Part shown: piece after piece, positions 2,803 through 29,219 of the stretch
Position numbering within the stretch: the first letter of the stretch is position 1
How the letters are laid out: each line of letters begins with the position of its first letter
Source of the DNA: a virus
Reading direction: 5' to 3' (one strand)
DNA: 30,793 nucleotides
Virus record (IMG/VR): IMGVR_UViG_3300009374_000025
Span: 1-30,793 of that record
Program-made: the position numbers and the translations under genes
The notes under the pieces: model-generated
Database searches by the model: none
What the model was told of the DNA's origin: nothing
Seen by the model: only the letters and a program-made list of their open reading frames with translations

Positions 2803-2814
2803 GGAGATCTAAAA

Positions 2815-5181: not shown

Positions 5182-5190
5182 GAGAATAGC

Positions 5191-5700: not shown

Positions 5701-5715
5701 TAAAAGGAGTAAGTC

Positions 5716-6105: not shown

Positions 6106-6400
6106 ACAACAACCACTACAAAGCAGGTTTGTTGTAATGATCGGCATGCTTATCGCTTATGCCACATTGCTTGGTTACGAATTGACGTTTGGAGACTCGT
6201 GGTCAAAGCCAAAGTACAAATCTCACCGGAGGGGCAGTTTTCATTTTAAGCGATTGGCTCAGGATTTCAATTTGTTTAAAAATGGAGTTTGGTTAAAGTC
6301 AACAAAAGCACATGAACCATTAGGAATATTTTGGGAGTCTATCGGCGGAACGTGGGGTGGTCGATGGGGAGATGGAAACCACTATTCATATGGTGAATAA
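6098..6400 (+). CDS. Endolysin, M15-family peptidoglycan peptidase
   Basis: A 100-residue protein with a GTG start at 6098 that overlaps the preceding stop. It matches the compact M15 (VanY/L-alanoyl-D-glutamate peptidase-like) phage endolysin fold. Residues 10-32 form the usual first helix and strand ending in GYELTFGDSW. Residues 47-60 carry the zinc site H49-X6-D56 (SFHFKRLAQDFN). Residues 83-97 carry the closing GGTWGGRWGDGNHYS with H95. All three expected zinc ligands (His, Asp, His) are present. The hydrophobic stretch near the N-terminus belongs to the fold and is not a membrane anchor. There is no cell-wall-binding domain, as is usual for endolysins of phages infecting Gram-negative hosts. 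It should cleave the peptide stem of peptidoglycan. Confidence 0.85.
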   Translation: MAKQQPLQSRFVVMIGMLIAYATLLGYELTFGDSWSKPKYKSHRRGSFHFKRLAQDFNLFKNGVWLKSTKAHEPLGIFWESIGGTWGGRWGDGNHYSYGE

Positions 6401-6401
6401 A

Positions 6402-6806
6402 ATGAAAAAACTTATTTTGATATTATTTATGTTGACAATATTTCCGGGCTTACTTTTTGCTAAAGGTGAGCCGGTTTCTAAAATAGGCCATATTGAGTTG
6501 GATCAATTGTTCTGGGAAAAAAAACTTGATCATCAGCAATATGAAAACTTTCTGGTTACAACGTTTCTATATCCAGATGCGACGATTAAAATTGTTCAAG
6601 TATTTTGGGCACTACATGAAGATCACGTTGACATTCTTCTTACTCGTTATTTGAAAGATGGCGATTTATATATTTGGAAGTTGAGTGAAAACGAAAAGAA
6701 GTATGAAAGGACTTATCCTCCAACACCAGACGCGAAACTTAAAGTGCTAAAGGATCTAATTGCCTTTCATAAATATCTTGTTCGACTTCAAAAGAAAACA
6801 AGGTGA
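6402..6806 (+). CDS. Secreted or membrane-anchored small protein in lysis cassette
   Basis: A 134-residue protein if it starts at the ATG at 6402. In-frame ATGs at 6357 and 6390 are open but lie inside the endolysin gene and would put extra residues ahead of the signal sequence. The chosen start gives a textbook signal peptide (MKKLILILFMLTIFPGLLFA, then KGEP). The mature part is charged and mostly helical, with several Tyr, Trp and Lys residues. It ends 4 bases into the next gene. If the hydrophobic N-terminus is not cleaved, this could be the inner-membrane spanin partner of the small lipoprotein at 7188-7331. No family recognised. Confidence 0.5.
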   Translation: MKKLILILFMLTIFPGLLFAKGEPVSKIGHIELDQLFWEKKLDHQQYENFLVTTFLYPDATIKIVQVFWALHEDHVDILLTRYLKDGDLYIWKLSENEKKYERTYPPTPDAKLKVLKDLIAFHKYLVRLQKKTR

Positions 6807-7210
6807 AAATGATAGTTCCAAAACTTTACGCGCCAGCACATCGTAAGTACGGAGATCAGCCGTGTTGTTATCATGACGCAACACCGGAAGCAATTGCGGC
6901 GGTAGCAGGTGGATGTGGTCCGGGCGGTGTAGGTGATTTCCTTGTCCCGGATACGATGTGGTTGTTAAGTGTGAAACCGGCTTGTTCGATCCACGATTAT
7001 ATGTATCGATGGGGGTTAACTGAAGAAGATCGGGCGCTGGCGGACGAAGTATTTTTCAATAATATGGTTCGAATTATCAAAGCGCAAAAGTCGTGGAAGT
7101 GGTTAGAAAAGAAACGTTTGAAACGAGCAGAATTGTATTATAATATGGTCAGCAAATACGGGTCAGCGGCGTTCTGGAATAGTAAAAATGAGCTTCATGA
7201 GATGGCTTAG
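6803..7210 (+). CDS. Phospholipase A2-like CxxHD-motif protein
   Basis: A 135-residue protein that starts in a 4-base overlap with the previous gene (GTGAAAATG region). The core is CGPGGVGDF (residues 38-46) followed by KPACSIHDYMYRWG (58-71) and an Asp in LADEVFF (about 80-84). The C-x-x-H-D-x-x-Y pattern with a downstream Asp is the active-site helix pattern of the phospholipase A2 superfamily, where the His-Asp pair and a second Asp activate water. The Gly-rich loop before it could be the calcium loop. It has no signal peptide. Its place in the lysis cassette suggests membrane damage during lysis, but this is inference. The same motif also occurs in uncharacterised phage proteins with no shown lipase activity. 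Confidence 0.5.
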   Translation: MKMIVPKLYAPAHRKYGDQPCCYHDATPEAIAAVAGGCGPGGVGDFLVPDTMWLLSVKPACSIHDYMYRWGLTEEDRALADEVFFNNMVRIIKAQKSWKWLEKKRLKRAELYYNMVSKYGSAAFWNSKNELHEMA

Positions 7211-7331
7211 TTTGATTGTTGTTTGTTTGGTGTTAACGGGTTGCGAGATTATAGCCAAACAACGGGTTGATTACGGTCCGGGCCGGGCGGCGGAATGTTC
7301 TTCATCGATTGAGTGTCGGCTGACTTTTTAG
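7188..7331 (+). CDS. Small lipoprotein, outer-membrane spanin candidate
   Basis: A 47-residue reading frame starting at the ATG at 7188, with a second in-frame ATG at 7197. It begins MSFMRWLSLIVVCLVLTGCE, which has a charged N-region, a hydrophobic core and a perfect lipobox L-T-G-C with the acylated Cys at residue 19. The mature part is only 29 residues with two more Cys. It overlaps the preceding gene by 23 bases. Size, lipobox and place at the end of a lysis cassette fit an Rz1-type o-spanin, which links to an inner-membrane spanin and fuses the outer membrane to the inner one. It lacks the Pro-rich segment common in Rz1 proteins. Its TAG stop overlaps the TAA stop of the convergent minus-strand gene. 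Confidence 0.55.
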   Translation: MSFMRWLSLIVVCLVLTGCEIIAKQRVDYGPGRAAECSSSIECRLTF

Positions 7332-7957
7332 ATCTCCTCCACATAACTTATTTCATCTCGTTTTTCCACCCGGAATACTTTGTCTGAGTTTTCCCGGATC
7401 TCCTCTAATGAAGCCCGTTCGTCGCTAACCATTATAATTTGAAGATCCAGCTGCCGGGAGATTTCCCGGATCATAGTCAGCGCCCGGAGGTTGTCTGCAG
7501 CGCCTTTGATATGCTTGAACGGTTCGTCGTCTATAAGCGTATTGCGGGGCCGGGGTTGGCTAATACTCCAACAAGCTGTTTTCAGGCCCAGGGCGGCAAT
7601 ATCTGCTGTGCCTCCGCCTGATTCCTTCAAGGGGTCAAACTCTTTTCCGGCACGCTCAAAAAATAGATCACACTTTGTATTCCCTTTCCCGGTAATGTCA
7701 AACGTTACATTCAGTGTGTACGGATCGTTGAAGACAGATTCCAATCCCAGCGTTGCGATCTCGGACAGTCTGTATTCCAATTCCTGCTGCGTAGTCCGAG
7801 CCACCATTTGTATTACTTTCTGCGCCCGTTCTGAAATTTCAATTTCGTCTTCTTGATCTTTGATCTGAAGGTTGTACCGGGAGATCTGCGCTTCAGCTTC
7901 TTCCCGCTTTCCTTTTGCCCGTTCGACGGTTCGGCGGATCTCTGAGAGTTCGGTCAT
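7328..7957 (-). CDS. C-terminal half of a split SbcC/Rad50-like ATPase
   Basis: A 209-residue protein starting at the ATG in a TAATG junction with the preceding gene; an open frame extends further upstream but lies inside that gene. Residues 1-65 are coiled coil. Residues 70-209 form the C-terminal ATPase lobe of a Rad50/SbcC-type protein: ABC signature ESGGGTADIAALGLKTA (112-128), Walker B NTLIDDEPFKHI (139-150) and a late strand IIMVSDE. It has no Walker A. The missing P-loop half is encoded at 9250-10323, upstream in the same operon. The two should join to make one ATP-binding head that works with the SbcD-like nuclease at 8211-9131 in end processing or recombination. Confidence 0.75.
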   Translation of the reverse strand: MTELSEIRRTVERAKGKREEAEAQISRYNLQIKDQEDEIEISERAQKVIQMVARTTQQELEYRLSEIATLGLESVFNDPYTLNVTFDITGKGNTKCDLFFERAGKEFDPLKESGGGTADIAALGLKTACWSISQPRPRNTLIDDEPFKHIKGAADNLRALTMIREISRQLDLQIIMVSDERASLEEIRENSDKVFRVEKRDEISYVEEI

Positions 7958-8214
7958 TATGTCCTCATTGGCGCTGCTTCTCCGGGCGGTTTCATTTTCT
8001 CTTTCAATTCCAATATTCCGTCGTCCAGCTTGTCCTGATTTGTTGCGACTTCTTCCCTCCAACCCTGAAGTTTCTTTTCCGCTTGTTCGAGATCCGCAAC
8101 ACCGAATTCATCGCTCATGTTTTTATAGTGGGTTTGTAATTCCCCTTCCAGCCGGTTGACTGATGTTTCTGCTTCCGAGATCTCGTTTTTGATTCTCAAT
8201 AATTCATCGCTCAT
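7957..8214 (-). CDS. Small coiled-coil protein
   Basis: An 85-residue protein starting at MSDELLRIKN, where ATGA overlaps the stop of the SbcD-like gene. GGGAG is 8 bases upstream. Almost the whole sequence is charged helix with heptad-like spacing (ISEAETSVNRLEGEL, LEQAEKKLQGWREEV). It lies between the nuclease and the C-terminal half of the SbcC-like ATPase. It may supply part of the coiled-coil arm that a complete SbcC would have in this position. That role is inferred from position only. Confidence 0.6.
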   Translation of the reverse strand: MSDELLRIKNEISEAETSVNRLEGELQTHYKNMSDEFGVADLEQAEKKLQGWREEVATNQDKLDDGILELKEKMKPPGEAAPMRT

Positions 8215-16526: not shown

Positions 16527-19271
16527 TTATTTTCTCCAATTGTGACGATTTCGTTTTATAGTCGTTGTGTTTGTTTCGGGTGCTGGTTCTTGGTTCGGCA
16601 AAGAGAATGAAAAGTATGTAGAGATCATCTTTGAATCTGGCTTAAAATCCACCTGATTCGCACGTATTTCCAATGCAATCCGTCCCAGCTGGGTCTTCCT
16701 ATCTAATACGGGTTTGACGTCGAAAAAACCGTCATTTTTCCCTTCTGATTGTCCGCATAGTTTTTTGGCTGCTTCTTCTCCCACGTTGTTGATTTCGATG
16801 AACGGTACATAAAGTTTATTTTCCCGGACGGTCCAGCGGATCGGGTCAGATAGATCGGTTTTCGGAAATACAATCTCCATGCCGAGTTTGATCGCGTCGT
16901 TTATGAGGGATTGCTTCTCATCCTTCTTGGCGTAGGTTAAAGACGCACAGACAAATTCAGCTGGATAGTTTACTTTACACCACGCGGTCCAGTACGCCAG
17001 CATTGCGTATTCGACGGAATGGGAGAGATTGAAGCCATAGCTGGCCCACTTCAAAAGTCCGTCCCAGAATTCGTTGCCCTCTTTTTGGGAAAGGGTTTGC
17101 TGTTTTGCGCACCCTTCGAGAAACTGTTTTTTGTACTGCTCAAACTCTTTTGGATCTCGTTTCTTGCCGATCACTTTGCGGATCTTATCGGCGGTGCCCT
17201 CCGGGAGTCCGGCAACCCGGCTAATGACCTGCATCACTTGCTCCTGATAAACCAAAAGCCCGTAAGTGGTCTTTGTTACATTTTCATAAATTTCGTTCAT
17301 CGGTTTCCAGTCCGCCCCATGTTTACGCTGGACGTACTTTTCAGTCATTCCACTTCCATACGGTCCGGGCCGGGCCAAAGCAACCACGGCCACCATATCG
17401 TCGAAAGATTCAATCTTCATTTCTTGAGCAAGACGGGCGGTGGCGTCTCCCCACTGGAATATCCCGGCTGTGTTTCCTTTTGTTATTTCACGGAAGATCT
17501 TTGGATCATCAAGCGGCAAATCTTCAAAATTAAAATCGTCTTTGGTCAGTCGTTTATGTTCAGCTAAAACGGATAATGTAGAAAGCCCTAAAAAGTCCAG
17601 CTTCATCAATCCGCTGAATTCGGCGTCTTCCATATCCCAACAGGAAGTTACAACGTCCGGTTTCCCTTTGTCCTTATACTTTTGAATGCGCAGGTTTCCA
17701 CGTTCTCCCTGTGTCAAATCGCTGTTAGAAATGACGACTGCTGCCGGGTGAAGGCCAAATCCTCTCAGTTGTCCTTCTAATCGCATAGCCAGCCGTGCTT
17801 CTTCTTTATGATCAGCAAAAAACTTTTGGCCTTCTTTGGTTCCTTCGAACGTGGCCTTGAGCAGATTCTTTTTATGTTCTTTTTCATCGATGGCTTTGGT
17901 CACCGGGGAGATCTCGAAAGCCGGGATACCAAATACACGGCCAACGTCCCACATTGTGTTCTTTGCTTTCATTCTCATATCGGTGGAGATCCCACAAACG
18001 TTATTCACTCCATAAGTTTTCTCCACATGTTGTCGGACCAGCGTCCGTTTGTGATCTTCAAAATCGATGTCGATGTCTGGCCAATCGATTCTGTCCTCAG
18101 ATATGAACCGAGCGAATGAAAGCCCGTAACTAATAGGATCAAGTTTGGTGATTCCTAACAGGTAGGCAATCAGACAACCGCCCACGCTGCCTCTGCCCGG
18201 TCCATACATTATATCATTTTCCCGGCACCATCGTAAGATCTCGTACACAAGTAGGAAGTATCGGGCAAATTTCTTCTTTTTGATTAATTGGAATTCTTTG
18301 TCAAATCGTTCCGGGTATTCGGACGGGATTGGGCCGTCAAGAAACAGTTTGGCCATCCCGGTCACGCATAGGTCTTCAAGTGTTTCCAGTTCGTGCGTTT
18401 CGCTTATTCCCATTAAAGGTAGGTCAATTTTCATTTTCGGGATACGGAAGTCAGTGCATTCTTTTGCGATCTGAATTGTATTGGCCATCGCGTCTTCGAT
18501 CTCGTTGCTTTCAAATAATACTCCATATTTAATTGTTTGTTTTTTAAAAGCCATAAGCATTTCTTGCTCAGATCGAAGATGAAGCCCTGTGAATCCAAAT
18601 CTCCAGCGTTTGGGATCTTCCCACGCGGCGTTTCTCTGAATGGCCAGAAGGACTTCTTGAACTTTCCAATCGGATCTTTCGATATAGTGGCAATCGTTTG
18701 TGGCGACAAGATCCGCTATCCCGGAGTTCTGCCATTTTGCTATTAGTTCATGGTGCCTATCTTGAACGTCGATCAGGTGCGGCATGATTTCGAGATATAC
18801 TCTTGCCCGGTCCGTAAGTTCGTTGAAAAACTTTACAGCGCCCGGCAGCGTTAAAAAGGATCCAGCGCACCCAGTTAAGATTATCCACCCGGAAAGATCT
18901 GAATTCAATATCATTTCGTATGAGACACGGGGCTTTCCGTGAAATCCTTCGAGGTTGGCCATTGTTAAAAGCCGACAAAGTTCCGTCCATCCTTTTAGAT
19001 TTCGAACGAGTACTGTCATATGGCCAGGTTTGATCTTTGTGTTTTCGAGATCCGGGACCACGTACAGTTCACAGCCGATCACAGACTTGATTCCCTGCTT
19101 GTCGCATTCCTTCTGGAATTTGATACAGCCAGTGACGTTTCCGTGATTCGTTAGGCCCAGATATTCAAAGCCCATTTCTTTGGCTTTCGTCACGTACTGT
19201 TCGGCGGTCCCATACCCGTCCAGTTGCGAGTACTCATTATGTACATGAAGGTGCGCGAAATTTTCATTCAT
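16527..19271 (-). CDS. dnaE: DNA polymerase III alpha subunit (C-family replicative polymerase)
   Basis: A 914-residue C-family polymerase. The PHP domain (1 to about 270) keeps the metal-ligand set expected for an active site: H9, H11, D19, H43, E68, H84, C135, D193, H195. This suggests built-in proofreading. The palm has YGPGRGSVGG (356-365) and PDIDIDF (398-404) with the two catalytic Asp; the third catalytic Asp is in LMKLDFLGL (about 559). The fingers contain HPAAVVIS. The protein ends soon after the helix-hairpin-helix region (about 810-830) and lacks the OB and tau-binding domains of the roughly 1160-residue bacterial enzyme. It is the main replicase, coupled (ATGA) to the beta clamp gene upstream. 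No dnaQ-type exonuclease is seen here. Confidence 0.92.
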   Translation of the reverse strand: MNENFAHLHVHNEYSQLDGYGTAEQYVTKAKEMGFEYLGLTNHGNVTGCIKFQKECDKQGIKSVIGCELYVVPDLENTKIKPGHMTVLVRNLKGWTELCRLLTMANLEGFHGKPRVSYEMILNSDLSGWIILTGCAGSFLTLPGAVKFFNELTDRARVYLEIMPHLIDVQDRHHELIAKWQNSGIADLVATNDCHYIERSDWKVQEVLLAIQRNAAWEDPKRWRFGFTGLHLRSEQEMLMAFKKQTIKYGVLFESNEIEDAMANTIQIAKECTDFRIPKMKIDLPLMGISETHELETLEDLCVTGMAKLFLDGPIPSEYPERFDKEFQLIKKKKFARYFLLVYEILRWCRENDIMYGPGRGSVGGCLIAYLLGITKLDPISYGLSFARFISEDRIDWPDIDIDFEDHKRTLVRQHVEKTYGVNNVCGISTDMRMKAKNTMWDVGRVFGIPAFEISPVTKAIDEKEHKKNLLKATFEGTKEGQKFFADHKEEARLAMRLEGQLRGFGLHPAAVVISNSDLTQGERGNLRIQKYKDKGKPDVVTSCWDMEDAEFSGLMKLDFLGLSTLSVLAEHKRLTKDDFNFEDLPLDDPKIFREITKGNTAGIFQWGDATARLAQEMKIESFDDMVAVVALARPGPYGSGMTEKYVQRKHGADWKPMNEIYENVTKTTYGLLVYQEQVMQVISRVAGLPEGTADKIRKVIGKKRDPKEFEQYKKQFLEGCAKQQTLSQKEGNEFWDGLLKWASYGFNLSHSVEYAMLAYWTAWCKVNYPAEFVCASLTYAKKDEKQSLINDAIKLGMEIVFPKTDLSDPIRWTVRENKLYVPFIEINNVGEEAAKKLCGQSEGKNDGFFDVKPVLDRKTQLGRIALEIRANQVDFKPDSKMISTYFSFSLPNQEPAPETNTTTIKRNRHNWRK

Positions 19272-20314
19272 TTCTTTAGCCCTATAACGTGCGAAAAAGT
19301 CTGACCTTCAAACACCATAGCTCGGTCTGTGATTTTTACTTCTTGAATTTCGTTCAATATAGCGGCGAGCAGATCCGGGTTGATCATCACGTCCGGTATC
19401 TCCTCCGAGTTATCGATGTCCAGCCGTTCTTCAATCCAGCCCACTTTTTCCGTCTCCGCTTTACAGACCAGATGATCTTTGCCGAATTCCAAAACAACCG
19501 TTTTGTTATCTTTGTCGGTCATGATCTCCGCTTTCTTCAGAACGGCTTTCAGATTCTTGGGCAGTATGATCTTTTTATACTCATCAATCTCGAACAGTCC
19601 CATAACGTTCGGCCATTCTCCTGTCATTGTCCGGCAGCTGAACGTCACGCCTTCATCGTTCTTAAAATGGATCCATGAATCATTGGCGGCCACTTCCACC
19701 GGGTTGTATTCCGAGAGATCCTTGGCGGCGGTCCGGGGAACGATTAGGTCAATAGCAATCTCAGTGGAAAGATCTCGGACGGTGGCCTGATAATTGTTAC
19801 ATGAGATAACCGCTTGTTTTTCGACTTTTAGGCAATTGAGAATTCCCTTTTTGGGATCGGTGGCGGCAGACGGAAGACAGAATTCAATCGCTTCACAAAA
19901 GTCCTTCGGGAGTTCGATCCAGTGAATCACTTCGTCCAGCCCTATGTCCGGGATAGGAACGTCCGGGACCGTGTAAAAACCAGCGGTGGTGTTTCCTGCG
20001 GTAATGATCAGCTGGTTCTTTTTGTCTTTAGTGGCGTTGGAAAGCTCAATCTCATCCTCTCCTATCTTCTGGAGGAGTTTGAACAGTTCTTCGACAAATA
20101 CGCCACATTGCTGGCCTGTTTTAAAGGGATAGCTGACGGAGATCTCGTCATTGAACCCGTACAATCGTTCACCGTCCATCATCAGCAGATCGGCCTGTTC
20201 CACTAATGCTCCGCTGCTAATTCCGGGCCGCACCCGGTTTATGGCTTCAATGAATTCGTTCCGGTTAATTGTCGGCGTGTCTTTCGGGGCGTTGTCCGTT
20301 CGTCTTCTTGCCAT
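19268..20314 (-). CDS. dnaN: DNA polymerase III beta sliding clamp
   Basis: A 348-residue protein close to the length of DnaN (about 366). It has three similar clamp domains: KTGQQCGVFVEELFKLLQKI in the first, ELPKDFCEAIEFCLP in the second, and IILPKNLKAVLKKAEIMTD in the third. The end of the third domain (ITDRAMVFEGQTFSHVIGLKK) fits the final clamp strands. GGAG about 12 bases before the ATG overlaps the end of the previous gene. It forms a ring that tethers the Pol III alpha subunit, whose gene is next and overlaps by 4 bases. Confidence 0.8.
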   Translation of the reverse strand: MARRRTDNAPKDTPTINRNEFIEAINRVRPGISSGALVEQADLLMMDGERLYGFNDEISVSYPFKTGQQCGVFVEELFKLLQKIGEDEIELSNATKDKKNQLIITAGNTTAGFYTVPDVPIPDIGLDEVIHWIELPKDFCEAIEFCLPSAATDPKKGILNCLKVEKQAVISCNNYQATVRDLSTEIAIDLIVPRTAAKDLSEYNPVEVAANDSWIHFKNDEGVTFSCRTMTGEWPNVMGLFEIDEYKKIILPKNLKAVLKKAEIMTDKDNKTVVLEFGKDHLVCKAETEKVGWIEERLDIDNSEEIPDVMINPDLLAAILNEIQEVKITDRAMVFEGQTFSHVIGLKK

Positions 20315-20474: not shown

Positions 20475-21308
20475 TTACACCTTCCAGCTAAACACAGGCC
20501 GAGCGTACAACGGGTTCAGCTTTCGTTTGAATCTTTCCAGCGCATCGTCTCCCAGACAACCGCCATCGTTGATCAGTTTTGGCTGATTGGACATATCCAG
20601 CATAAATAACAGCCGCATATATTCGCTCAGATACGGACGATTGTGGCAAATACAATATCGGTAGTTGATAAATTTATAGTTTTCATCCCAGATGTTCAGG
20701 CCGTGTATAACTCCTTCACGGTCTATTAATACCGCTCGGTTTTTGCCGTGAAAGAAGTATTCAGTCATGGTTATGCCGTCCTCAATATCGTTCCAGCTGA
20801 TATTGTCCAGCCACTTCTTTAGAAACCGCTGGAGGGCGTCGGCGTCACCCATTCCCGTCTTTACGTTCCTATATTCGAGATCAAAATGCTCACGTGGATA
20901 CTTCCGGGAATTCTTACGGAACGTTGACCACTTGCCGCCCTTCATATTCATAAATGCTTTTGGGTCATATATGAATTCATAGTCCAAAAAGGTTTTGACC
21001 CCTTTCATTGGATTGTAGCCGGTGAAATCTGACCAGATGTCTTCGTCAACAACTTCATCAGCCCAAACCCGTCCATATTCTAAAGACGCTGGCGGAAACA
21101 TCATCTGATGAGAACCATCTTTGACCGCAACGTATTTTCCACCCTTAAATGGAACGCTTTGATACAACATTTCAACAAATTTAGCTTTCTGGAAATATTC
21201 GTCCGAACACCAGAAGTTCGGTGTGATACCTTTGCTCTTTAACAAGCGAAGATATTTAGAATCCAAACCCGCCATCTTTTCCGTCGTCTTTTGATTTGTC
21301 TCGTTCAT
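20475..21308 (-). CDS. Acyltransferase-like protein (GNAT fold, DUF2156-type)
   Basis: A 277-residue protein. The ATG at 21308 has AGGAG six bases upstream; a GTG at 21311 is possible. The central pattern FDLEYRNVKTG, 'GGKWSTFRKNSRKY' (about 124-137) and VLIDREGVIHGLNIWDENYK followed by FINYRYCICHNRP is the layout of the GNAT-like phosphatidylglycerol-lysyltransferase / FemX type acyltransferases, which transfer acyl or aminoacyl groups from acyl-CoA or aminoacyl-tRNA. The end has PKLINDGGCLGDDALERFKRKL. Acetyl- and acyltransferases of GNAT type are among the enzymes that finish thymidine hypermodifications in some phages, and here the gene is close to radical SAM and PLP genes. The substrate cannot be told from sequence. 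Confidence 0.5.
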   Translation of the reverse strand: MNETNQKTTEKMAGLDSKYLRLLKSKGITPNFWCSDEYFQKAKFVEMLYQSVPFKGGKYVAVKDGSHQMMFPPASLEYGRVWADEVVDEDIWSDFTGYNPMKGVKTFLDYEFIYDPKAFMNMKGGKWSTFRKNSRKYPREHFDLEYRNVKTGMGDADALQRFLKKWLDNISWNDIEDGITMTEYFFHGKNRAVLIDREGVIHGLNIWDENYKFINYRYCICHNRPYLSEYMRLLFMLDMSNQPKLINDGGCLGDDALERFKRKLNPLYARPVFSWKV

Positions 21309-22159
21309 CACGTTCTCCTGCGCCTTTTTGGGGTTTCGCTTTCGGGTTTGTCTGTTGATTCATTATCCGCTTGATCAGCTGCTTGCTCATCGTTCCGCCT
21401 TTTCGACTTTTGCCTCCCATTGCTGTCCTCCTTTGATGTTGAGACTTTTCCCATCTCATCGTACACACAGTGAGACAGGACGCCTTGCATACTAAATTTA
21501 TCGGCTAATATTAAACAATAATCAGCCGGAGTATTATCTTCTGTGAAGTATAGTTTCAGTTCATCGTGAAACATGAATAGCGCCAGCAGGTCGTTTGTTC
21601 TGATTCCTACCGGGCCGAAGTCCGATTTCAAGTTGTCGGCGTTCAGGTTGAATCCCAGATCCTCTTTTTTGGTTATCTTGATAGTTGCTCCGCTGTAAAT
21701 ATCTTTCTGGACGATAACCGGGCTGAGGTTTTCCGAATAGATTTCAATATGGGATAATCCTTCATCTAACAGCTGAACAATACTGGAGTCCAGCGAAATG
21801 GTGTTGTTGTGTTTGTTTTTCACATCGTCGTCTAGATACGCCTGATACAGCTTTTCTACTTCGCCAAACGTCTTCTCCACGCTGGAGCAGGTTTTCTCCC
21901 GGCGATAAGAACCGGAGACAGTCGTGAACTTCATTCGTCCGTCTTCGATCTTCATATCAAATGATTCATAGTCGTTGGCAGCAAAAGCGATCTCCCGGAA
22001 ATCCGGTTCACGGGCCGGGATACTGAACCGGAGCAGAATTGTCTTATCGGTATTCAATATGAATACGGTGTGGTTTTTAGCATAGATGGTGTTTTTCATC
22101 CGCCCGGATTGTTGAAGGGCGGCGGCGTGTGCGAAGATCGTTTCAACGAATGCGCTCAT
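21308..22159 (-). CDS. Possible clamp-like protein, basic tail
   Basis: A 283-residue protein with AAGGAG upstream of the ATG. It is mostly beta-rich in two parts. Segments such as FDMKIEDGRMKFTTVSGSYR and LKLYFTEDNTPADYCLILAD with SMQGVLSHCVYD resemble strands of sliding-clamp (DnaN/PCNA) domains, and there may be two domains. After residue 245 comes a low-complexity polar tail ending PKRRRRT. The Arg codons are the ribosome binding site of the next gene. If it is a clamp, the phage has a second one beside the DnaN-like gene. The resemblance is weak and structural modelling is needed. Confidence 0.35.
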   Translation of the reverse strand: MSAFVETIFAHAAALQQSGRMKNTIYAKNHTVFILNTDKTILLRFSIPAREPDFREIAFAANDYESFDMKIEDGRMKFTTVSGSYRREKTCSSVEKTFGEVEKLYQAYLDDDVKNKHNNTISLDSSIVQLLDEGLSHIEIYSENLSPVIVQKDIYSGATIKITKKEDLGFNLNADNLKSDFGPVGIRTNDLLALFMFHDELKLYFTEDNTPADYCLILADKFSMQGVLSHCVYDEMGKVSTSKEDSNGRQKSKRRNDEQAADQADNESTDKPESETPKRRRRT

Positions 22160-22168
22160 GGTTTCTCC

Positions 22169-22696
22169 TTATATGTTAGCTTGATAAAATATTTTGTTTT
22201 CGGCTTTCCCGGCTTTCTCAATACTCATAGATGGATATGGCTCACAACCCGTTGACTTTTTTAAATACAAAGGGTGTTTAGGTTGTTTGTTTTTAGTAAG
22301 TCCGAAATGATACGGGGCATTAAGTCGATGAAGGACTTCTTCGCCACGCCCAAAAAGATCGCCATAAAATCCCCAACAAGCCACGACCAGATTTGCTTCT
22401 ATTTGGGCATCTTTAATGTATTTGTCATTTAGTTTACCAATAGGATCTCCTCGAAATAATTTCAATTCTTTTGGAGAACGAGCACAAAAGGCAAACAGGT
22501 TAACCATCAACAATCTCCCGTATCCCCAGTCATTAACAAATCGCATACACCGATTGATTGTTGGATCGTCGAAGTTTTCGTCCGCAGTCGAAGGATTCAG
22601 CCCGACAAAAACAGCTGTTGCCAATTTGGGTTTCCATTCCCTTTCAAGAAAATATCTGTACACCCGGTCTTCTGAAAATATCGCTGAACGTTTCAT
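22169..22696 (-). CDS. DUF1643-family protein
   Basis: A 175-residue protein with the family signature: VFVGLNPSTADENFDDPTIN (about 29-48) followed by W-G-Y-G-R-LLMVNLFAF-CARSPKEL, and a later VVACWGFYGDLF. DUF1643 occurs in phages and bacteria and shows a resemblance to the uracil-DNA-glycosylase fold, but no biochemical role has been settled that I know of. It begins 3 bases after the preceding stop and lies among radical SAM genes. This makes a nucleotide- or base-related role plausible but unproven. Confidence 0.8.
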   Translation of the reverse strand: MKRSAIFSEDRVYRYFLEREWKPKLATAVFVGLNPSTADENFDDPTINRCMRFVNDWGYGRLLMVNLFAFCARSPKELKLFRGDPIGKLNDKYIKDAQIEANLVVACWGFYGDLFGRGEEVLHRLNAPYHFGLTKNKQPKHPLYLKKSTGCEPYPSMSIEKAGKAENKIFYQANI

Positions 22697-22699
22697 AAT

Positions 22700-22885
22700 T
22701 CACCCATAATGGAGAATGGTGTTACTAAGTGCCTGTAATTCGTTTGCTTTCATTTGGAAGTTTTCTTCATCGTAGGCAATTGTTTCATCTCTCGCAAGTC
22801 TGTATTGATTCAAGGCGATCATCCCTTGTATTTCGGCGTTCACGGCATATATTTGAGCCAACTGCGCAACCAACCAACTTTCCAT
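22700..22885 (-). CDS. Small helical protein
   Basis: A 61-residue, mostly helical protein (MESWLVAQLAQIYAVNAEIQ). The start is in a TAATG junction with the stop of the upstream radical SAM gene, and DUF1643 follows 3 bases after its stop. It probably forms a coiled coil or partner subunit. Function unknown. Confidence 0.5.
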   Translation of the reverse strand: MESWLVAQLAQIYAVNAEIQGMIALNQYRLARDETIAYDEENFQMKANELQALSNTILHYG

Positions 22886-24345
22886 TATAATAATCCTTCA
22901 ACAATGTTTTCTCTGAAGTCTGTCTCCGGGTTCCAGCGCCAGATAATTCCGCCATCATCGTATCCAACAGCTTCCATGCCTTTGGCCCAGTCAATACGGA
23001 AAGCGTTGTTGCCCTCTCCGTTCCAAAGCCGATGGACTGCTTCCCGGAGTTTGTCTGAAAGGAAACCGCCCATTTTGTTTACATAATTTTCAAAATCCTT
23101 CCATCGGACCATTCCGTCAGCTTCTGTGAATCTAATTTTGTCGTCAATGGTATTACCTATATTAAGTTTTCCGACAATATAGGATTGTTGTTTGATATAT
23201 AAGATTGCTCCAATCGCGCAACCCCAATTGAAACCGGCGTTCTCAAAAGCGTTTCCGACTTCACAACATATTGGATCGTCATTTTCCGGGACGTTTCCGA
23301 GATCGAACGTGGAACAGCTGAATCCTTTTGCCCGGAACAACTTCATGAATTTGCTCAATAGCAGAGATCCGATTGGCTGGCTGTCCGTAGTCAATAGGAA
23401 CATTCTCTCAAAGTCGTACTCTCGTTCATAGAAATTTCGGCGGATACCGGGATTGTTGGCGCTGTATGAATAAGTATCAAACGTGATATGGCGACACCCG
23501 GTGGCCCATACGTCTTCGATATATCCTTGAACCATTGCCTCATCATCGTTGATAAATACCATGTACGGTTCGATTCGAGCCACGACTCTCACACCGGCGT
23601 CCGAAAGCATTTTCATTGTCTTCAAGCGTTCTTTGTAAGTGGGGGCGGCTGGTTCCAGATCCTTCAGGATCTTATCGTCTGATGAAATCAGCGTCATGTG
23701 AACTGCCGCCCCACCAGAATTGTTCGCCAACGCCTGAACATAGTCTCCACGACCTACAAGGGCAGATTTGGTATTGATCATTACTGGATAACCAGCTTCA
23801 GCGAGGTATTTCAAGAGGTACAGGCTGATTTCCTTCTTCCCTTCTATGGGCAGAAAGTCTTCGAACCGGATACCGAAACGCAACGGGATACCCATTGAGA
23901 TAGCCCGTTGCACTTCGTTCCCTTTTGGGGCGGCCCCCCAGTTCTTTAAAAGTACATCTAGTTCTTTGGCGTAATATATCGGGTTACAGTGGCGAAGACC
24001 CACGCTCTTGCTGTTATCGAAGAATGACGTGTATAAGGATGCACGAAAATTATCTGCGTAGCAGTATCTGCAGCCGAAGCCACATCTCAATCCGTCCCAA
24101 ACGTCGATGTTTAGCGGCATAGGACAGGCGGACGCTCGAAGACTCACTTCAGCAAAAGAGTTGATCTCCTCCGTATTCAATAATCGCTCGTGCTTCAGCC
24201 AATGTCTGTGTTCTATATTGAATTGGTGATAGTTGGATTTTCTGCCCTTTTCCCGGATTGCGCCTTTGCCAAAAACACCGGCTTCAAGTTGAGTCCTCCG
24301 GGGCACGAAGTTTTTGATCTGGCTTCTGAGTTCGTAATAATTCAT
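22885..24345 (-). CDS. Radical SAM enzyme, spore-photoproduct-lyase-like
   Basis: A 486-residue protein. The cluster motif CGFGCRYCYA gives C88, C92, C95 (CX3CX2C), which binds the 4Fe-4S cluster that cleaves S-adenosylmethionine. SPL-type features follow: VMINTKSALVGR (188-199), LISSDDKILKDLEPAAPTYKER (219-240) and AGVRVVARIEP (250-260), where the 'EP.AP...R' pattern is typical of the SPL-like family. C-terminal Cys C360, C361 and C376 might bind an extra cluster or metal. SPL works on thymine in DNA, so a DNA-base substrate is plausible here. The gene starts in an ATGA overlap with the small zinc-ribbon gene. A second SPL-like protein is encoded 1.6 kb upstream. Confidence 0.8.
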   Translation of the reverse strand: MNYYELRSQIKNFVPRRTQLEAGVFGKGAIREKGRKSNYHQFNIEHRHWLKHERLLNTEEINSFAEVSLRASACPMPLNIDVWDGLRCGFGCRYCYADNFRASLYTSFFDNSKSVGLRHCNPIYYAKELDVLLKNWGAAPKGNEVQRAISMGIPLRFGIRFEDFLPIEGKKEISLYLLKYLAEAGYPVMINTKSALVGRGDYVQALANNSGGAAVHMTLISSDDKILKDLEPAAPTYKERLKTMKMLSDAGVRVVARIEPYMVFINDDEAMVQGYIEDVWATGCRHITFDTYSYSANNPGIRRNFYEREYDFERMFLLTTDSQPIGSLLLSKFMKLFRAKGFSCSTFDLGNVPENDDPICCEVGNAFENAGFNWGCAIGAILYIKQQSYIVGKLNIGNTIDDKIRFTEADGMVRWKDFENYVNKMGGFLSDKLREAVHRLWNGEGNNAFRIDWAKGMEAVGYDDGGIIWRWNPETDFRENIVEGLL

Positions 24346-24557
24346 TGATTGCCTTTTTGGTGATTTCTAATAACTTCCAAAAGATCTATTCTTAACTTTT
24401 TTGCGCAACTTTCGTGACAACATAATTTGGCCATTTCGTTGGAATGTCCCCATCCTTCTTCGTCTCGGTTTCTCCCTTCGCAATGAATATTTATATATTC
24501 AGGATTTAATGGATCTTCGATTTCTTGTTGACAAATATCACAAAACCATTTGATCAT
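24342..24557 (-). CDS. Small zinc-ribbon-like protein
   Basis: A 71-residue protein starting MIKWFCDICQQEIED, overlapping the preceding stop by ATGA. CDIC and CCHESC plus one more Cys and two His (NIHC, GHSNE) suggest a zinc site. Longer open frame upstream is inside the previous gene and was not used. It ends in an ATGA overlap with the second radical SAM gene, so they should be made together. It may be a small accessory or DNA-binding subunit of this enzyme group. Confidence 0.55.
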   Translation of the reverse strand: MIKWFCDICQQEIEDPLNPEYINIHCEGRNRDEEGWGHSNEMAKLCCHESCAKKLRIDLLEVIRNHQKGNQ

Positions 24558-25147
24558 TTTAGTATCTCCCGGACTTTTTCGATTGCGTTCAGTCCCTCTT
24601 GGACGATCTGCTCCCAGTCCTTCAGCTTGAATTCCTCGAATAACTGGCCTCTGATTCCACCATCTCCGTGATGGTCCGGGAATTCGCACAACATATAATT
24701 CCTACCACTGAAAAACCATTCGAATCCATATTCCAATATCCCTCTGGAAAAGGAGTAATGATACATGTATCCTTGTTTCTCCCGGTCCAGTATACCGATG
24801 AAATAGAATTCAGCTAATACGTGGGCCACAGCGGTCCGGGGCTGGCTTCCGCCCTTGATATCGAATACGGTTGTGGCTAAGGTTTCTTTGTGGATATAAT
24901 CGAAACAATCCCGCATTAGAAATTCAAACAGGTAATTGTCGATGGATGGATCATGGTACTTTTCGTACAAAAAGAGAAATGCCGCCCAGCGTACACCCAT
25001 TGAATCCGGGGAAAGTATCAGCCCATGATACCCTTCTTCCCAATCCCTAAGCCCAGATTCCGGGCCAACGGGTTTCCGGGCACGGTGGGTTTCCTTGCTC
25101 CACTGTCCGGGGCTGGGATATTTTTCACGGTCTTCTCTGTCGCTCAC
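24554..25147 (-). CDS. Unknown protein within the radical SAM / PLP group
   Basis: A 197-residue protein from a GTG at 25147 that forms a GTGA overlap with the stop of the PLP gene and has GGGAG 6 bases upstream. A TTG at 25168 is also in frame but has no good site. The middle (RWAAFLFLYEKYHDPSIDNY) is helical and aromatic. A later segment, SGRNYMLCEFPDHHGDGG, holds Cys, two His and two Asp that might bind a metal. I do not recognise a family. Its place between the PLP enzyme and the zinc-ribbon and radical SAM genes makes it a part of the putative pathway. Confidence 0.5.
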   Translation of the reverse strand: MSDREDREKYPSPGQWSKETHRARKPVGPESGLRDWEEGYHGLILSPDSMGVRWAAFLFLYEKYHDPSIDNYLFEFLMRDCFDYIHKETLATTVFDIKGGSQPRTAVAHVLAEFYFIGILDREKQGYMYHYSFSRGILEYGFEWFFSGRNYMLCEFPDHHGDGGIRGQLFEEFKLKDWEQIVQEGLNAIEKVREILK

Positions 25148-25977
25148 GCCATTCTCCCGATATTCCAAAACAAAATTGGTTTGTCCAGATATTGAATATT
25201 ATTACAAAGCCATTCCCACGCTTTCAGATCGTAATACGGGTGACTGGGAAATGGGGAATGTATTCTTGCTGGTTCTGTGTATTCGTAACCAGAGTCATGG
25301 ACAGTGAGGTTTAGATAACGCCCTAAAAGCCCACCAAATTGAATGCCAGACTTTTCCTTGATGGATTTCGTCTTTTTGTATATGCTCCCGGTTCGGCCCA
25401 TAATTCCAAATATCATGGGCTTGGACATTCCTTTTAATAGCCCGGCACAAATTGTCCCGCTGCCAACGTTCACTACAACGGTGGTGTACTCCTTGTTATA
25501 TATTCGAGAGATCCGGGAAGTTGCCCGGATTGTTTCTTCAAGTGGCAATCCGAGTTCAAGCATATGAGCATCTTTGTATTTTTCATGAAGTTGACGGGCG
25601 GCAACGTAAAAATTAACCTTAGCCATCCCGGCTTTAATCGGAATTGTTTCTGCGCCATTGTCTAACCATTTGGCTCGGTGGAAGTCTAACAATTTGGGAT
25701 ATTTGTGTTTGTATATCGGATCAAATATCACCGCTCTCAATCCGATCTCTTTTGCTATCCAGCTAACCGCCCATCCAGCCATCGATACAGAGGTTTCAAC
25801 ATATCCTACGGTTTTAATCCCGTGGTTCTTTAGGGTTTCGAGATGCTTCAATACTCCCCTGACTTTGGAGAACGGAGGGCCGGGCGGTTGTACACATCCG
25901 TCTTCCCGTTTAACAAAAACTTCATGTCCATAAATTTTATATTTTTCAATCGGTGTATCGTCAATGATTTCTATCAA
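25144..25977 (-). CDS. Fold-type-II PLP-dependent enzyme (ACC-deaminase-like)
   Basis: A 277-residue protein. The start is TTG in a TTGA overlap with the radical SAM stop; GAAGGG lies upstream. The pattern matches 1-aminocyclopropane-1-carboxylate deaminase / D-cysteine desulfhydrase-type enzymes: EVFVKREDGC (19-28), then FSKVRG (36-41) in which K38 should be the PLP Schiff-base lysine, then ETSVSMAGWA (61-70) at the cofactor-contact loop and VGSGTICAGLLKG (171-183) as the phosphate-binding Gly loop. The usual GGNK before the lysine reads PPFSK. Family length is about 330, so this is a short version. A metabolic role or an amino-group reaction on a modified base are both possible; context favours the second. 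Confidence 0.75.
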   Translation of the reverse strand: MIEIIDDTPIEKYKIYGHEVFVKREDGCVQPPGPPFSKVRGVLKHLETLKNHGIKTVGYVETSVSMAGWAVSWIAKEIGLRAVIFDPIYKHKYPKLLDFHRAKWLDNGAETIPIKAGMAKVNFYVAARQLHEKYKDAHMLELGLPLEETIRATSRISRIYNKEYTTVVVNVGSGTICAGLLKGMSKPMIFGIMGRTGSIYKKTKSIKEKSGIQFGGLLGRYLNLTVHDSGYEYTEPARIHSPFPSHPYYDLKAWEWLCNNIQYLDKPILFWNIGRMA

Positions 25978-27050
25978 AACAACAACCCTTCTTTTTCTCC
26001 TACAATTAGCCCGGCGTCAGCCATTGTGTACATCTTTTTTGATTTCCCGGAAAGGATCTTCATGCCCTCATCCCGGTTGCCAATCCCGTCCCACGTTTTT
26101 TCGACGATTTCCCCAGCAGATTTGCCGCTCCTCACAAGTTCACGCCATGTGTGTGTATTATACGTGCTGGGGTTCATAACATCGATACCGCAGCACGTAT
26201 TGGAACGGTTGATCCAGGCCCGTCCGACGTTAACAAAATCCGGGCATCCAAGTACAATATTATATTTCAAAGCGATGTCGCATAATTTTCGTTGGATTGG
26301 CCGCCAACCCTGGTCCTGATTTTCCCTCCATATTGTTTCTATGTTTATGCCAATGGCGGCCAATCGTTTGAACACAAAATCGTTTGCATGGAGATTGTAC
26401 ACGTTGTAACTTTTGATCCCGGCTGATTTTAGCCGTTTGATTATATCTTCGAACTGTTTGATTGTATGATATCCGGGAATGAACGGTTCACCATTAACAC
26501 CAACTTGAAGCCCGTATTTTTTTGATTTCATAAGGATCTTCATGTGCTCAAATCGATCCGGGATTGGGGTGGTGCGTTTCCTTTCTAATATTTCCCAGTC
26601 AGACTCGGCACCAGGGCTAATAGTCGGCAGGATTATGGCCGGATTGGCCGTATTACACAGTTGATCTTCATACTCCATAAGAAGATGTGTACACTGAGTT
26701 TGGATAACGTAATTCCAGCGCAGATCAATTAAAACGTCGATCATCCGTTTGGTAGTTCGATATTTTAATTCAGCCGGTTGGAAAGGATCGTTTTTGTCGC
26801 CAAGGCGGATTGTCTTTTTTTGTTTGATGGCGTATGCAATGGAGGATTTGGGCTGAGGATTTTTTAGCCCGTTAGTCAGCTTGCGGCGAAGATCTTCCGG
26901 GTCGTTTGGGGCAAAGTCCCGTTTCCAGACGTAATTGAGACGCCTACAATAGCAGTGCCAGCAATCGATCTGGCAATCATTGTAGGCGTCCAGGGAAAAG
27001 GAAAGGGGACAGTATAGACTGTCCCCACGTATGTGTAGCCCGTGAGACAT
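25974..27050 (-). CDS. Radical SAM enzyme, SPL-like, upstream member
   Basis: A 358-residue protein. CQIDCWHCYC gives C26, C30, C33 (CX3CX2C). Next, IRLGDKNDPFQPAELKYR (81-98) and VIQTQCTHLL (115-124) fit the SPL-like pattern (GD..DPFQPAE, then a 'TKS'-like strand). Later strands include GLQVGVNGEPFIPG. C269, C286 and C287 near the end may bind an auxiliary cluster or metal, as in the other SPL-like protein. It starts after a short gap from the 176-residue gene, with only a weak ribosome binding site (ACGGGC). The downstream PLP gene overlaps it by 4 bases, so the two are probably made together. Confidence 0.8.
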   Translation of the reverse strand: MSHGLHIRGDSLYCPLSFSLDAYNDCQIDCWHCYCRRLNYVWKRDFAPNDPEDLRRKLTNGLKNPQPKSSIAYAIKQKKTIRLGDKNDPFQPAELKYRTTKRMIDVLIDLRWNYVIQTQCTHLLMEYEDQLCNTANPAIILPTISPGAESDWEILERKRTTPIPDRFEHMKILMKSKKYGLQVGVNGEPFIPGYHTIKQFEDIIKRLKSAGIKSYNVYNLHANDFVFKRLAAIGINIETIWRENQDQGWRPIQRKLCDIALKYNIVLGCPDFVNVGRAWINRSNTCCGIDVMNPSTYNTHTWRELVRSGKSAGEIVEKTWDGIGNRDEGMKILSGKSKKMYTMADAGLIVGEKEGLLF

Positions 27051-27059
27051 TTAGCCCGT

Positions 27060-27590
27060 CTAAATGCTCAGCTGGCCATCGTTATCGGTTAATAGTCCAC
27101 AGGCATCCAGGGAATTGACAACCATGTTCGTGGCCCACTTGGATTCCTTTGGGTTAGACTTGCCGCCCTTGTCAGCAAAAACAGCGTCCGCTTCACCTTC
27201 CAGTTCGGACTTTGTGATGCCCTTTTTGCCGGCTTTCTGAAGTACCTGACCCACAGCCATAATCCGGGTGAACCGGGGTGCTGCGGGATCTTTTTTCTTT
27301 GCCGGGGGCTTGCTGCTGTTGCCGCCCTTCTTGTTAGAAGATCCGCTTTTGCCCGGATCGGCAGCAGGTTTCTCCGGGAGTTTGATGCCAATGGCGGTCA
27401 GGGCTTCAACGGCGTCCTTGGAAACCTTGTCGTTGAGCGTGAGTTCCACAGCAGCTTCCACGAGATCCTTTTCCAACTCCGCTTTTGTGATTTTGCGCCC
27501 GGTGGGAATGGGTGGCTCAAGTTTCATGATCTTGTTAAACTCGGCTGCGACGTTTTCCAGAACTTTCTTTGTAACATCATCCTTTTTCAT
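27060..27590 (-). CDS. Two-module protein with winged-helix-like C-terminus
   Basis: A 176-residue protein with GGAG 6 bases upstream. The first 75 residues are helical. A flexible Pro/Lys/Gly/Ser linker (about 76-103) leads to a C-terminal module: RFTRIMAVGQVLQKAGKKGI, then KSELEGEADAVF and SLDACGLL near the end, the usual three-helix and wing layout of a winged helix. It resembles phage proteins with repeated winged modules of unknown role. It is the first gene after the helicase and a 100-base gap, so it may head its own transcript. A DNA-binding regulator is a fair guess. Confidence 0.55.
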   Translation of the reverse strand: MKKDDVTKKVLENVAAEFNKIMKLEPPIPTGRKITKAELEKDLVEAAVELTLNDKVSKDAVEALTAIGIKLPEKPAADPGKSGSSNKKGGNSSKPPAKKKDPAAPRFTRIMAVGQVLQKAGKKGITKSELEGEADAVFADKGGKSNPKESKWATNMVVNSLDACGLLTDNDGQLSI

Positions 27591-27689: not shown

Positions 27690-29219
27690 TCACATTATAC
27701 ACGAATCCAGATATGGGCGTCCGATTTTAAGTTGATGGAGCACTTTAACTTTATCAATTAAGGAATAGTCATCATCACGGGCTTTCAGTACGCCACACCT
27801 GTACAGCCCGTCCCGTTTGTCCTCCGGGGTTTGATTGATAGCGAATCCACCGTCAATCTCTCCCAGCTTGCGAATATCTTCTGCCCAATCGCCCTGCTTG
27901 ATATCTTTTCCGGTTCGGGCCGTGTTCGACTGACTGGCTGTAACTACAAGTGCGTGCTTCTCCTGAGCAATAGCTTTATGGCCCATCCATACTTCGTTGA
28001 TCCCGTGCCGGTATTCATTGCTGTATCGTTCTGATTTGAATTTGTCCGCCATATCCGTAACAATTACGTCCGGGACAAAATTATCATAATACTCCAGATT
28101 GCTAAGGTAGGTTTTGAAAGCTGGAATTGTTATTGTGTCGGATGGTTCGGCCACCAATCGAAAGCGATCCGGGCGAATCAACCCGGACCTTTCTAATTCA
28201 TTCAATTTCTTCACAACGGCCTGTGTGTCCATCGGGTTTGGCCGGTCTGCTATTTTGAACCACGTGGAAGGGACAAACGATCTTGTCCCGCGACATTCAG
28301 AACAAAGCCGGTATCCGGTCGGTGTATCTCTAATGTCCGGTTTCTCTCCATCATCATTTACCAATCTGACTTTCCCAGCCCTATTAGTTTGGGCGCATTC
28401 CCCTGTTTGATTATGCTCGCAATCGAACACTGGTATTGGAATGCGCCCAGCCCACCTTTTCGAAGGCAATCCGGTTAACCATTTTATGATACGCAAGATC
28501 ATCTGGCGCTCGCTCATCTCCAGACTGAGAAAAAGGACTTTGTGCCCAGTCATTAGCGCCCGGAGAGCTATCAACATCAGCCACCACGACTTCCCCACGC
28601 CCTGAGACGCTACAACAGCGAACAGCTGCCCTCGTTCGAAGTGACCAATGGACGTTCCCAAGTTTCCGTATAAACGGAACAGCCGGTCACCAGAGTCTTC
28701 GTCTAATGCCGAGATGATTTTCTGGCGGTTGAAGAATGGGTCAATGCCTTTTGTTTCTATCCGGGCAACCCGTTGGAAGTTTCCAATCAGTGCTTCTCCG
28801 TCCTCCGTCCGTCCTCCGGTGATACATTGCGAAAGTTCCATCCGCATGTTTTCCAGAGACGCCAGCCTGAAATACTTTTCGGTTTTATCGGCTTCATATT
28901 GGGCGTTGAACTTGCTGGCCTGTTCGTGCTCGGAGGAAATCCCAGCTAAAAATTCCTCTATCAGTTCCGCAGTATCCGGGGCCATACCGTTGAGCTTTTG
29001 TTCTTGGAAGATCTCCTGAATGTTCGCTTTTGGGGCGGTCTTGTAATGAGTGTAAAATTCCATGCACCATTCGGCAACGATCCGGGCGAAATCCGCACGC
29101 AAACATTCAGGCTTGTATAAGGACTGTACTGAGCGGATGAAGTCGTCAGATACGATCAATCCGGTTACAATCTGGCGCTCTATTCGAGCATCTACGGGCT
29201 TTCGTCTAATGATGGTCAT
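27690..29219 (-). CDS. dnaB: DnaB-type replicative helicase
   Basis: A 509-residue protein. The N-terminal domain (1 to about 155) is helical, as in DnaB. The motor domain has Walker A SQGVGKS (205-211), LFLSLEMS (229-236) with the conserved Glu, Walker B VIVTDMADKF (385-394), and VVTASQSNTARTGK, the equivalent of the DnaB 'SQLNR' motif. Between Walker A and B is an insert of about 60 residues with C267, H269, C275 and CSEC (C306, C309), which looks like a zinc knuckle. It should unwind DNA ahead of Pol III. It overlaps the methyltransferase stop by ATGA. A primase was not found in the window. Confidence 0.88.
   Translation of the reverse strand: MTIIRRKPVDARIERQIVTGLIVSDDFIRSVQSLYKPECLRADFARIVAEWCMEFYTHYKTAPKANIQEIFQEQKLNGMAPDTAELIEEFLAGISSEHEQASKFNAQYEADKTEKYFRLASLENMRMELSQCITGGRTEDGEALIGNFQRVARIETKGIDPFFNRQKIISALDEDSGDRLFRLYGNLGTSIGHFERGQLFAVVASQGVGKSWWLMLIALRALMTGHKVLFLSLEMSERQMILRIIKWLTGLPSKRWAGRIPIPVFDCEHNQTGECAQTNRAGKVRLVNDDGEKPDIRDTPTGYRLCSECRGTRSFVPSTWFKIADRPNPMDTQAVVKKLNELERSGLIRPDRFRLVAEPSDTITIPAFKTYLSNLEYYDNFVPDVIVTDMADKFKSERYSNEYRHGINEVWMGHKAIAQEKHALVVTASQSNTARTGKDIKQGDWAEDIRKLGEIDGGFAINQTPEDKRDGLYRCGVLKARDDDYSLIDKVKVLHQLKIGRPYLDSCIM

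Follow-up and report, generated by a model that had tools for sequence, protein, structure and literature searches.

The minus strand of a 30,793-base IMG/VR fragment from an uncultured virus of bacteria (IMGVR_UViG_3300009374_000025, referred to at its full length as the window) carries, in the interval between a helicase gene and a sliding clamp gene, an operon whose products very probably attach amino-acid-derived groups to the bases of phage DNA. We are inclined to describe these genes as a hypermodification cassette that acts near the replication fork and combines a pyridoxal phosphate (PLP) enzyme of the Pseudomonas phage M6 type, which occupies an exchangeable tailoring slot, with a predicted clamp-fold protein (p283) and a predicted FemX-fold transferase. 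The new part is the cassette, which is widespread among phages; on our best reading it would be independent of the kinase and pyrophosphorylases (PPlases) of the M6 pathway and probably thymine-directed. The evidence was computed and consists of homology, predicted folds, synteny, co-occurrence and, in the contigs searched, the lack of recognisable entry enzymes of the M6 pathway.

Constant and exchangeable parts of the cassette

IMG/VR was scanned with alignments of the PLP enzyme (80 loci), of the two radical S-adenosylmethionine enzymes rSAM1 (33 loci) and rSAM2 (62 loci) and of the acyltransferase (47 loci), and the loci were annotated with family hidden Markov models. Scans with the PLP enzyme or rSAM2 as single sequences returned nothing, although alignments A1 and A5 did find loci; the p283 profile (A3) proved too heterogeneous to scan the collection with. 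The cassette is seen in about 45 contigs. Its usual order, which is largely fixed, is DnaB-like helicase, in many loci a homologue of the window's 176-amino acid (aa) protein, rSAM2, tailoring slot, rSAM1, p283, acyltransferase, replication clamp and DNA polymerase, with the PLP gene placed before rSAM2 in a few loci. Each of the distinct well-flanked rSAM1 genes (45 of 45) has p283, the acyltransferase and another rSAM within 7 kb, p283 is accompanied by rSAM1 and the acyltransferase in all of its 42 well-flanked copies, and the PLP gene is found near rSAM1 in 22 of the 45 loci. This conservation of the operon is far beyond chance.

The first-pass annotation, made from the window sequence alone, had described a coupled operon beside replication genes. 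The gene ends indeed overlap or nearly touch, all on the minus strand of the replication block (Table 1). It had also regarded homologues placed among metabolic genes as a sign against a role in modification; what we found is a cassette that replication genes always adjoin. When 84,980 bacterial and archaeal genomes were scanned with rSAM1, only three short contigs (3.6–13.4 kb) of metagenome-assembled genomes were returned. Up to the ends of the contigs, all three carry the cassette genes, and they look like phage contigs binned with their hosts. As far as we searched, the cassette is confined to phages. We found no description of it in open-access papers, closed papers being outside the search.

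By sequence, rSAM1 and rSAM2 are both members of the SplB or ‘DNA repair photolyase’ group: they match PHROG 13321 (E = 7e-20 and 6e-15, respectively) and the PA0069 family of NCBIfam (E = 3e-18 and 1e-10). The CX3CX2C motifs that had been noticed in these spore photoproduct lyase (SPL)-like proteins are located at residues 88–95 of rSAM1 and 26–33 of rSAM2, and are invariant across 29 homologues (52–64% identity) and 35 homologues, respectively. In profile comparisons (hhalign), the two enzymes match each other (98.8%, E = 8e-17) and rSAM2 matches the M6-type rSAM (gp53 family; 97%, E = 9e-11). tblastn gave no match to rSAM2 in cultured phages and none in M6 to either enzyme, and a PDB profile search returned no match for the rSAM alignments A4 and A5, nor for the M6-type rSAM. 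The C-terminus of rSAM2 (window 26000–25974) reads ...EKEGLLF, several relatives ending in KGLLF, RGFLI or RGKLL, and this short hydrophobic tail is a possible candidate for a clamp-binding peptide. In four loci (L016, L022, L118, L119), rSAM1 is split by genes resembling HNH-type homing endonucleases or has grown to about 612–618 aa, perhaps enlarged by an intein.

p283 was not listed in the first-pass annotation and belongs to the core. The 50 best PDB matches listed for its AlphaFold2 model (pLDDT 85, pTM 0.77) are all beta clamps or PCNAs (best E = 1e-8, TMq 0.42–0.53). Pfam, PHROG and NCBIfam offer no family for p283 that convinces, and a PDB profile search gave no match. Judging from the model, p283 looks like a sliding-clamp fold distinct from the replication clamp, which forms a conserved cluster of its own (c3, present in 37 loci). 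Both p283 and the acyltransferase are missing from four contigs (L027, L028, L029, L040) that carry the PLP gene in the same replication neighbourhood but have no rSAMs, an absence which argues that p283 travels with the cassette and not with the replisome. A 206-aa neighbour of a lone acyltransferase in L141 appeared clamp-like by eye and was not supported (2.5 bits).

The acyltransferase, which had been noted as a GNAT/FemX-like protein 1 kb beyond the operon, also belongs to the cassette. Its predicted model (pLDDT 89, pTM 0.87) agrees with this likeness: the Foldseek matches in the PDB include 2hqy (E = 1e-9), which we take to be DUF2156-like, MprF (2e-8), Sbb17 (4e-8) and FemX (2e-5), together with LPG synthases, the aminoacyl-tRNA-dependent peptide synthase Sba18 and weaker viral matches, and a profile search independent of the model again found 2hqy (E = 3e-5). 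Neither Pfam nor PHROG nor NCBIfam offers a convincing family, and tblastn gave no match in cultured phages. Most enzymes of the MprF, LPG synthase, Sbb17 and FemX type use aminoacyl-tRNA, and the modelled protein resembles transferases that draw their amino acids from tRNA. In L151, a homologue of the acyltransferase adjoins the clamp gene in the absence of rSAMs and p283, with a TET-associated glycosyltransferase (TAGT, E = 5e-40) about 1.2 kb upstream (L151:4710–5852 and 7022–7840). This locus, perhaps another acylated-base system, links the acyltransferase to DNA hypermodification independently.

The tailoring slot between the rSAM genes is where the loci differ. In place of the PLP enzyme it can hold (i) a FAD-dependent DAO-family oxidase (PF01266, E = 1.5e-14) and an aldo/keto reductase (PF00248, E = 1e-31), (ii) an aldo/keto reductase and a methyltransferase-like protein (c15) with no family assigned, or (iii) a DUF362 protein (PF04015, E = 8e-36); in one group, an amidoligase (PF12224, E = 4.5e-7) stands alongside the PLP gene. 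The alternative genes of PLP-less loci separate or precede the rSAMs. The 197-aa protein is an optional member of the slot, with homologues in or beside it in L112, L193 and L108; it has no convincing Pfam, PHROG or NCBIfam family and no tblastn match in cultured phages. A second GNAT/FemX-like gene lies within the slot of two loci (L135:1663–2481, L165:1831–2772).

All genes named in the first-pass annotation are present, but not all are cassette parts. The DUF1643 protein, recognised correctly, recurs only in L010 and L098, apart from the cassette, and we excluded it from the core together with the 61-aa protein and the zinc ribbon, none of the three being a conserved part.

Table 1 Cassette genes and neighbouring genes of the window
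Feature	Position	Strand	Length (aa)	Assignment
DNA polymerase	19271–16527	−		Replication block
Replication sliding clamp	19268–20314	−		DnaN-like; PF02768, E = 2e-5, just under cut-off; cassette border
Acyltransferase	20475–21311	−	278	Predicted tandem-GNAT DUF2156/MprF/FemX fold; core
p283	21308–22159	−	283	Predicted two-domain sliding-clamp fold; core
DUF1643 protein	22169–22696	−	175	PF07799, E = 1e-38; accessory
61-aa open reading frame	22700–22885	−	61	No homologue found
rSAM1	22885–24345	−	486	SplB-group radical SAM; core
Zinc-ribbon-like protein	24342–24578	−	78	Cys pairs visible; no homologue in relatives
197-aa protein	24554–25147	−	197	Winged-helix-like by eye; optional slot gene
PLP enzyme	25144–25977	−	277	Fold type II, M6 gp52 homologue; tailoring-slot gene
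rSAM2	25974–27050	−	358	SplB-group radical SAM; core
176-aa protein	27060–27590	−	176	Lys/Pro-rich; directly upstream of rSAM2
Helicase	27690–29219			Upstream border of reported genes

Kinship with the M6 pathway

The PLP enzyme belongs to the PALP/fold-II family (Pfam E = 8e-8; PHROG 7093 ‘threonine dehydratase’, E = 4e-47), as had been recognised. A tblastn search of 50,697 phage records gave 66 matching records, the best being M6 gp52 (35.8% identity over 98%, E = 4e-44), and the two proteins have the motifs GPPFSK (K38) and SGT (173–175) in common. The M6 rSAM reportedly rearranges a glycyl group from N-linkage to C-linkage, after which the PLP enzyme decarboxylates it. In every cultured phage examined (M6, SN1, Bordetella phage CN2, Stenotrophomonas phage Bhz59, Rhizobium phage RHph_I72, Pseudanabaena phage Pam3 and EKU1), a gp52-type PLP gene lies near a SplB-like rSAM, in loci that also have, wholly or largely, the kinase, aGPT-PPlase, Nmad5 and thymidylate synthase (TS) genes. 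The SN1 cassette, including its PLP-dependent enzyme and rSAM, has been listed as an M6-type thymidine modification pathway (PMC9476957), and M6 DNA contains 5-(2-aminoethyl)deoxyuridine, thought to arise via 5-hydroxymethyl-deoxyuridine (5-hmdU) and a 5-hmdU DNA kinase (PMC6449724). The homology to gp52 and the shared PLP–rSAM neighbourhood support the first-pass proposal of base hypermodification, in a form akin to the M6 pathway, and we consider it likely that the cassette shares the late M6 chemistry. The fold-II PLP enzyme, which had been proposed as a difference from known versions, does not set the system apart, as gp52 itself is of the same family.

Homologues of the PLP enzyme also occur in other company. 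In L027, L028, L029 and L040, an M6-gp52-like PLP gene stands between the DnaB and clamp genes, with one or two N4/N6-type DNA methyltransferase-like genes replacing the rSAMs; these ‘methyltransferases’ might transfer a larger group, e.g. aminocarboxypropyl. A distant homologue (~24%) directly follows a DNA methyltransferase gene in L086–L089 (contigs of 18–39 kb).

Cassette contigs of 18–172 kb were searched over their whole length for the entry enzymes of the M6 pathway. The 5-hmdU DNA kinase (HMUDK, PF18748) was found in none of 42, with M6 as the positive control, and neither HMUDK_hel/aGPT-PPlase1 (PF18723) nor ADDT/aGPT-PPlase2 (PF18724) was found in any of 48, with M6 and a second M6-type contig as positive controls. 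The TS family (PF00303) occurs in three of the 48, as one full-length, one short TS-like and one degenerate form, and is intact in only two. The suggestion that the kinase, the attaching enzyme and a TS-like enzyme may lie outside the window was thus not borne out by the relatives. The full-length TS directly follows the acyltransferase in L205; in L135, the short TS-like protein is encoded just downstream of the clamp gene, and a gene named dCMP-deaminase-like by eye occupies the slot. A TS beside the cassette hints at, without proving, a uracil/thymine substrate. Another candidate for a hidden TS, c9 (about 300 aa, 24 loci), was rejected as primase-like (Toprim/DNAG_N). To our knowledge, all known thymidine hypermodification starts from 5-hydroxymethyl-dU and a kinase. 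Late M6-type enzymes that are kept while the entry enzymes go unrecognised point to a different route by which amino-acid groups are put onto DNA, and modification probably proceeds here without the M6 kinase/PPlase entry.

Proposed mechanism and its rivals

We propose that the phage's own DNA is modified at or just behind the replication fork, where p283 would keep the cassette enzymes on DNA. The rSAM pair would build an α-amino-acid side chain joined to the base through carbon, the 5-position of thymine/uracil being the most likely site; thymine is the likely substrate. The PLP enzyme would then strip the carboxyl group and leave a base with an aminoalkyl group, comparable to the 5-aminoethyl-dU of M6, and in relatives the amino-acid-oxidase-like flavoprotein and the aldo/keto reductase would produce keto- and then hydroxy-acids instead. 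A single carbon-linked α-amino-acid intermediate would, from family chemistry, explain this exchange of enzymes. The FemX-fold enzyme may move an aminoacyl or acyl group; it would act first, to donate the amino acid, or last, to cap the amine. The product would shield phage DNA against host nucleases. Substrate base, chemistry, step order, clamp tethering and use of aminoacyl-tRNA are what we infer from the computed evidence. A more specific and tentative version is that the rSAM pair, riding its own clamp, activates the thymine methyl group in DNA and couples to it an amino acid that the FemX-fold enzyme takes from aminoacyl-tRNA. A thymine methylene radical is the presumed intermediate of spore photoproduct lyase, and direct activation of the methyl group would make hydroxymethyl-dUMP, kinase and pyrophosphorylase unnecessary. 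We know of no case in which tRNA is the amino-acid donor for DNA.

Several observations weigh against this proposal or parts of it. The comparison of p283 with the phage's own replication clamp (hhalign) is not significant, and, as the two cannot be aligned by profile, the clamp claim rests on the predicted fold. The match of rSAM1 to the M6 rSAM is weak (55%, E = 1e-4), FemX-fold proteins can also use acyl-CoA, and the substrates of the DAO, aldo/keto reductase and DUF362 proteins are read from family names only. A search for Tet_JBP as a thymine hydroxylase, run without a positive control, gave no match. The contigs are possibly incomplete fragments, so that unrecognised hmU enzymes may exist, and the cassette could target RNA or a small molecule.

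The fragmentary contigs leave room for an ordinary M6-type pathway, in which the hmU synthase, kinase and amino-acid-attaching enzyme are too diverged or encoded on missing parts of the genomes, and the rSAMs and PLP enzyme act afterwards. The homology of these enzymes to those of M6 would fit it, as would the TS-family genes, the short form included, that adjoin the cassette in two contigs. We consider it unlikely because the kinase, HMUDK_hel and ADDT are absent from 42–48 contigs of up to 172 kb with positive controls, because simple blastp still reveals these genes in more distant M6-type loci, and because the M6-type cassettes examined contain no FemX-fold or clamp gene of the present families. 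A target other than DNA, be it RNA (tRNA), a small molecule or a peptide, appears improbable. rSAM enzymes, PLP enzymes and aminoacyl-tRNA-dependent transferases all have known roles in RNA modification and in natural-product pathways, the FemX-fold matches include the aminoacyl-tRNA-dependent peptide synthases Sbb17 and Sba18, SplB-group rSAMs have other roles, and DUF362 and amidoligase proteins occur in other settings; such a target is, however, at odds with the predicted DNA-clamp fold that is strictly tied to the cassette, with the constant position inside the replication block and with a PLP family otherwise found in phage DNA-hypermodification cassettes or beside DNA methyltransferases. 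We give very little credence to SPL-like repair, in which the rSAMs, aided by a clamp, would repair or reverse pyrimidine lesions at the replication fork: the SplB-group assignment and the clamp and replication context agree with it, but the remaining genes would be unrelated neighbours, which leaves the constant acyltransferase and a slot that exchanges PLP enzyme, oxidase–reductase and amidoligase unexplained.

Genomic setting and relation to known systems

The minus strand of the window carries a T4-flavoured replication block with genes for DNA polymerase, clamp loader, UvsX, UvsY, a gp32-like single-stranded DNA-binding protein, an SbcCD-like pair (309 and 357 aa, SbcD/SbcC-like), Holliday-junction resolvase, DnaB-like helicase, an N4/N6 DNA methyltransferase and a replication initiator. 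The product of 7328–8062 (PHROG 15167 ‘ATPase’) was rejected as an hmU kinase since Pfam assigns it no kinase family. No tRNA genes were found in the window. A plus-strand gene block (2–7210) includes a 788-aa protein without a PHROG match, the other members having few or no matches. In L108 and L119, a conserved gene of about 300 aa that adjoins the cassette (L108:5716–6597, L119:4293–5225) is glycosyltransferase-like by eye and has no Pfam family.

A cassette-tied clamp-fold protein would explain how a bulky modification keeps pace with replication, and the interchangeable slot (PLP enzyme, oxidase and reductase, DUF362 protein, amidoligase) predicts several undiscovered bases with defined gene sets to express. 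The closest known system is the 5-(2-aminoethyl)-dU pathway of M6 and other Yuavirus phages (gp51–gp58), with which the cassette shares a homologous fold-II PLP enzyme, a SplB-group rSAM and nearby replication genes. It differs in having two other rSAMs, the predicted clamp-fold protein and the FemX-fold transferase, and in lacking a recognisable HMUDK kinase, HMUDK_hel/aGPT-PPlase1, ADDT/aGPT-PPlase2 and Nmad5, with TS being rare. An amino-acid-bearing base without a 5-hydroxymethyl pyrimidine has a parallel in the CmoA/CmoX/CmoY carboxymethylcytosine-glycine system of Synechococcus phage S-B43, which, however, uses carboxy-SAM transfer and an asparagine-synthetase-like ligase, with rSAM, PLP and GNAT enzymes unmentioned in the text (PMC12783734). 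SplB spore photoproduct lyase has the CX3CX2C motif of the rSAM group. The cassette enzymes are placed at the level of the SplB group, and their gene context is biosynthetic. The predicted acyltransferase fold is that of MprF, LPG synthase, FemX and Sbb17, which act on lipids, peptidoglycan or small molecules, whereas the proposed target here is DNA. Finally, the pairing of a DNA hypermodification enzyme with a sliding clamp has an analogue in T4, whose α-glucosyltransferase binds the gp45 clamp in an interaction that is not what sets the glucosylation ratio (PMC13216743). This binding offers a precedent for clamp-coupled hypermodification, with the difference that T4 uses its replication clamp and the cassette has a separate predicted clamp-fold protein.

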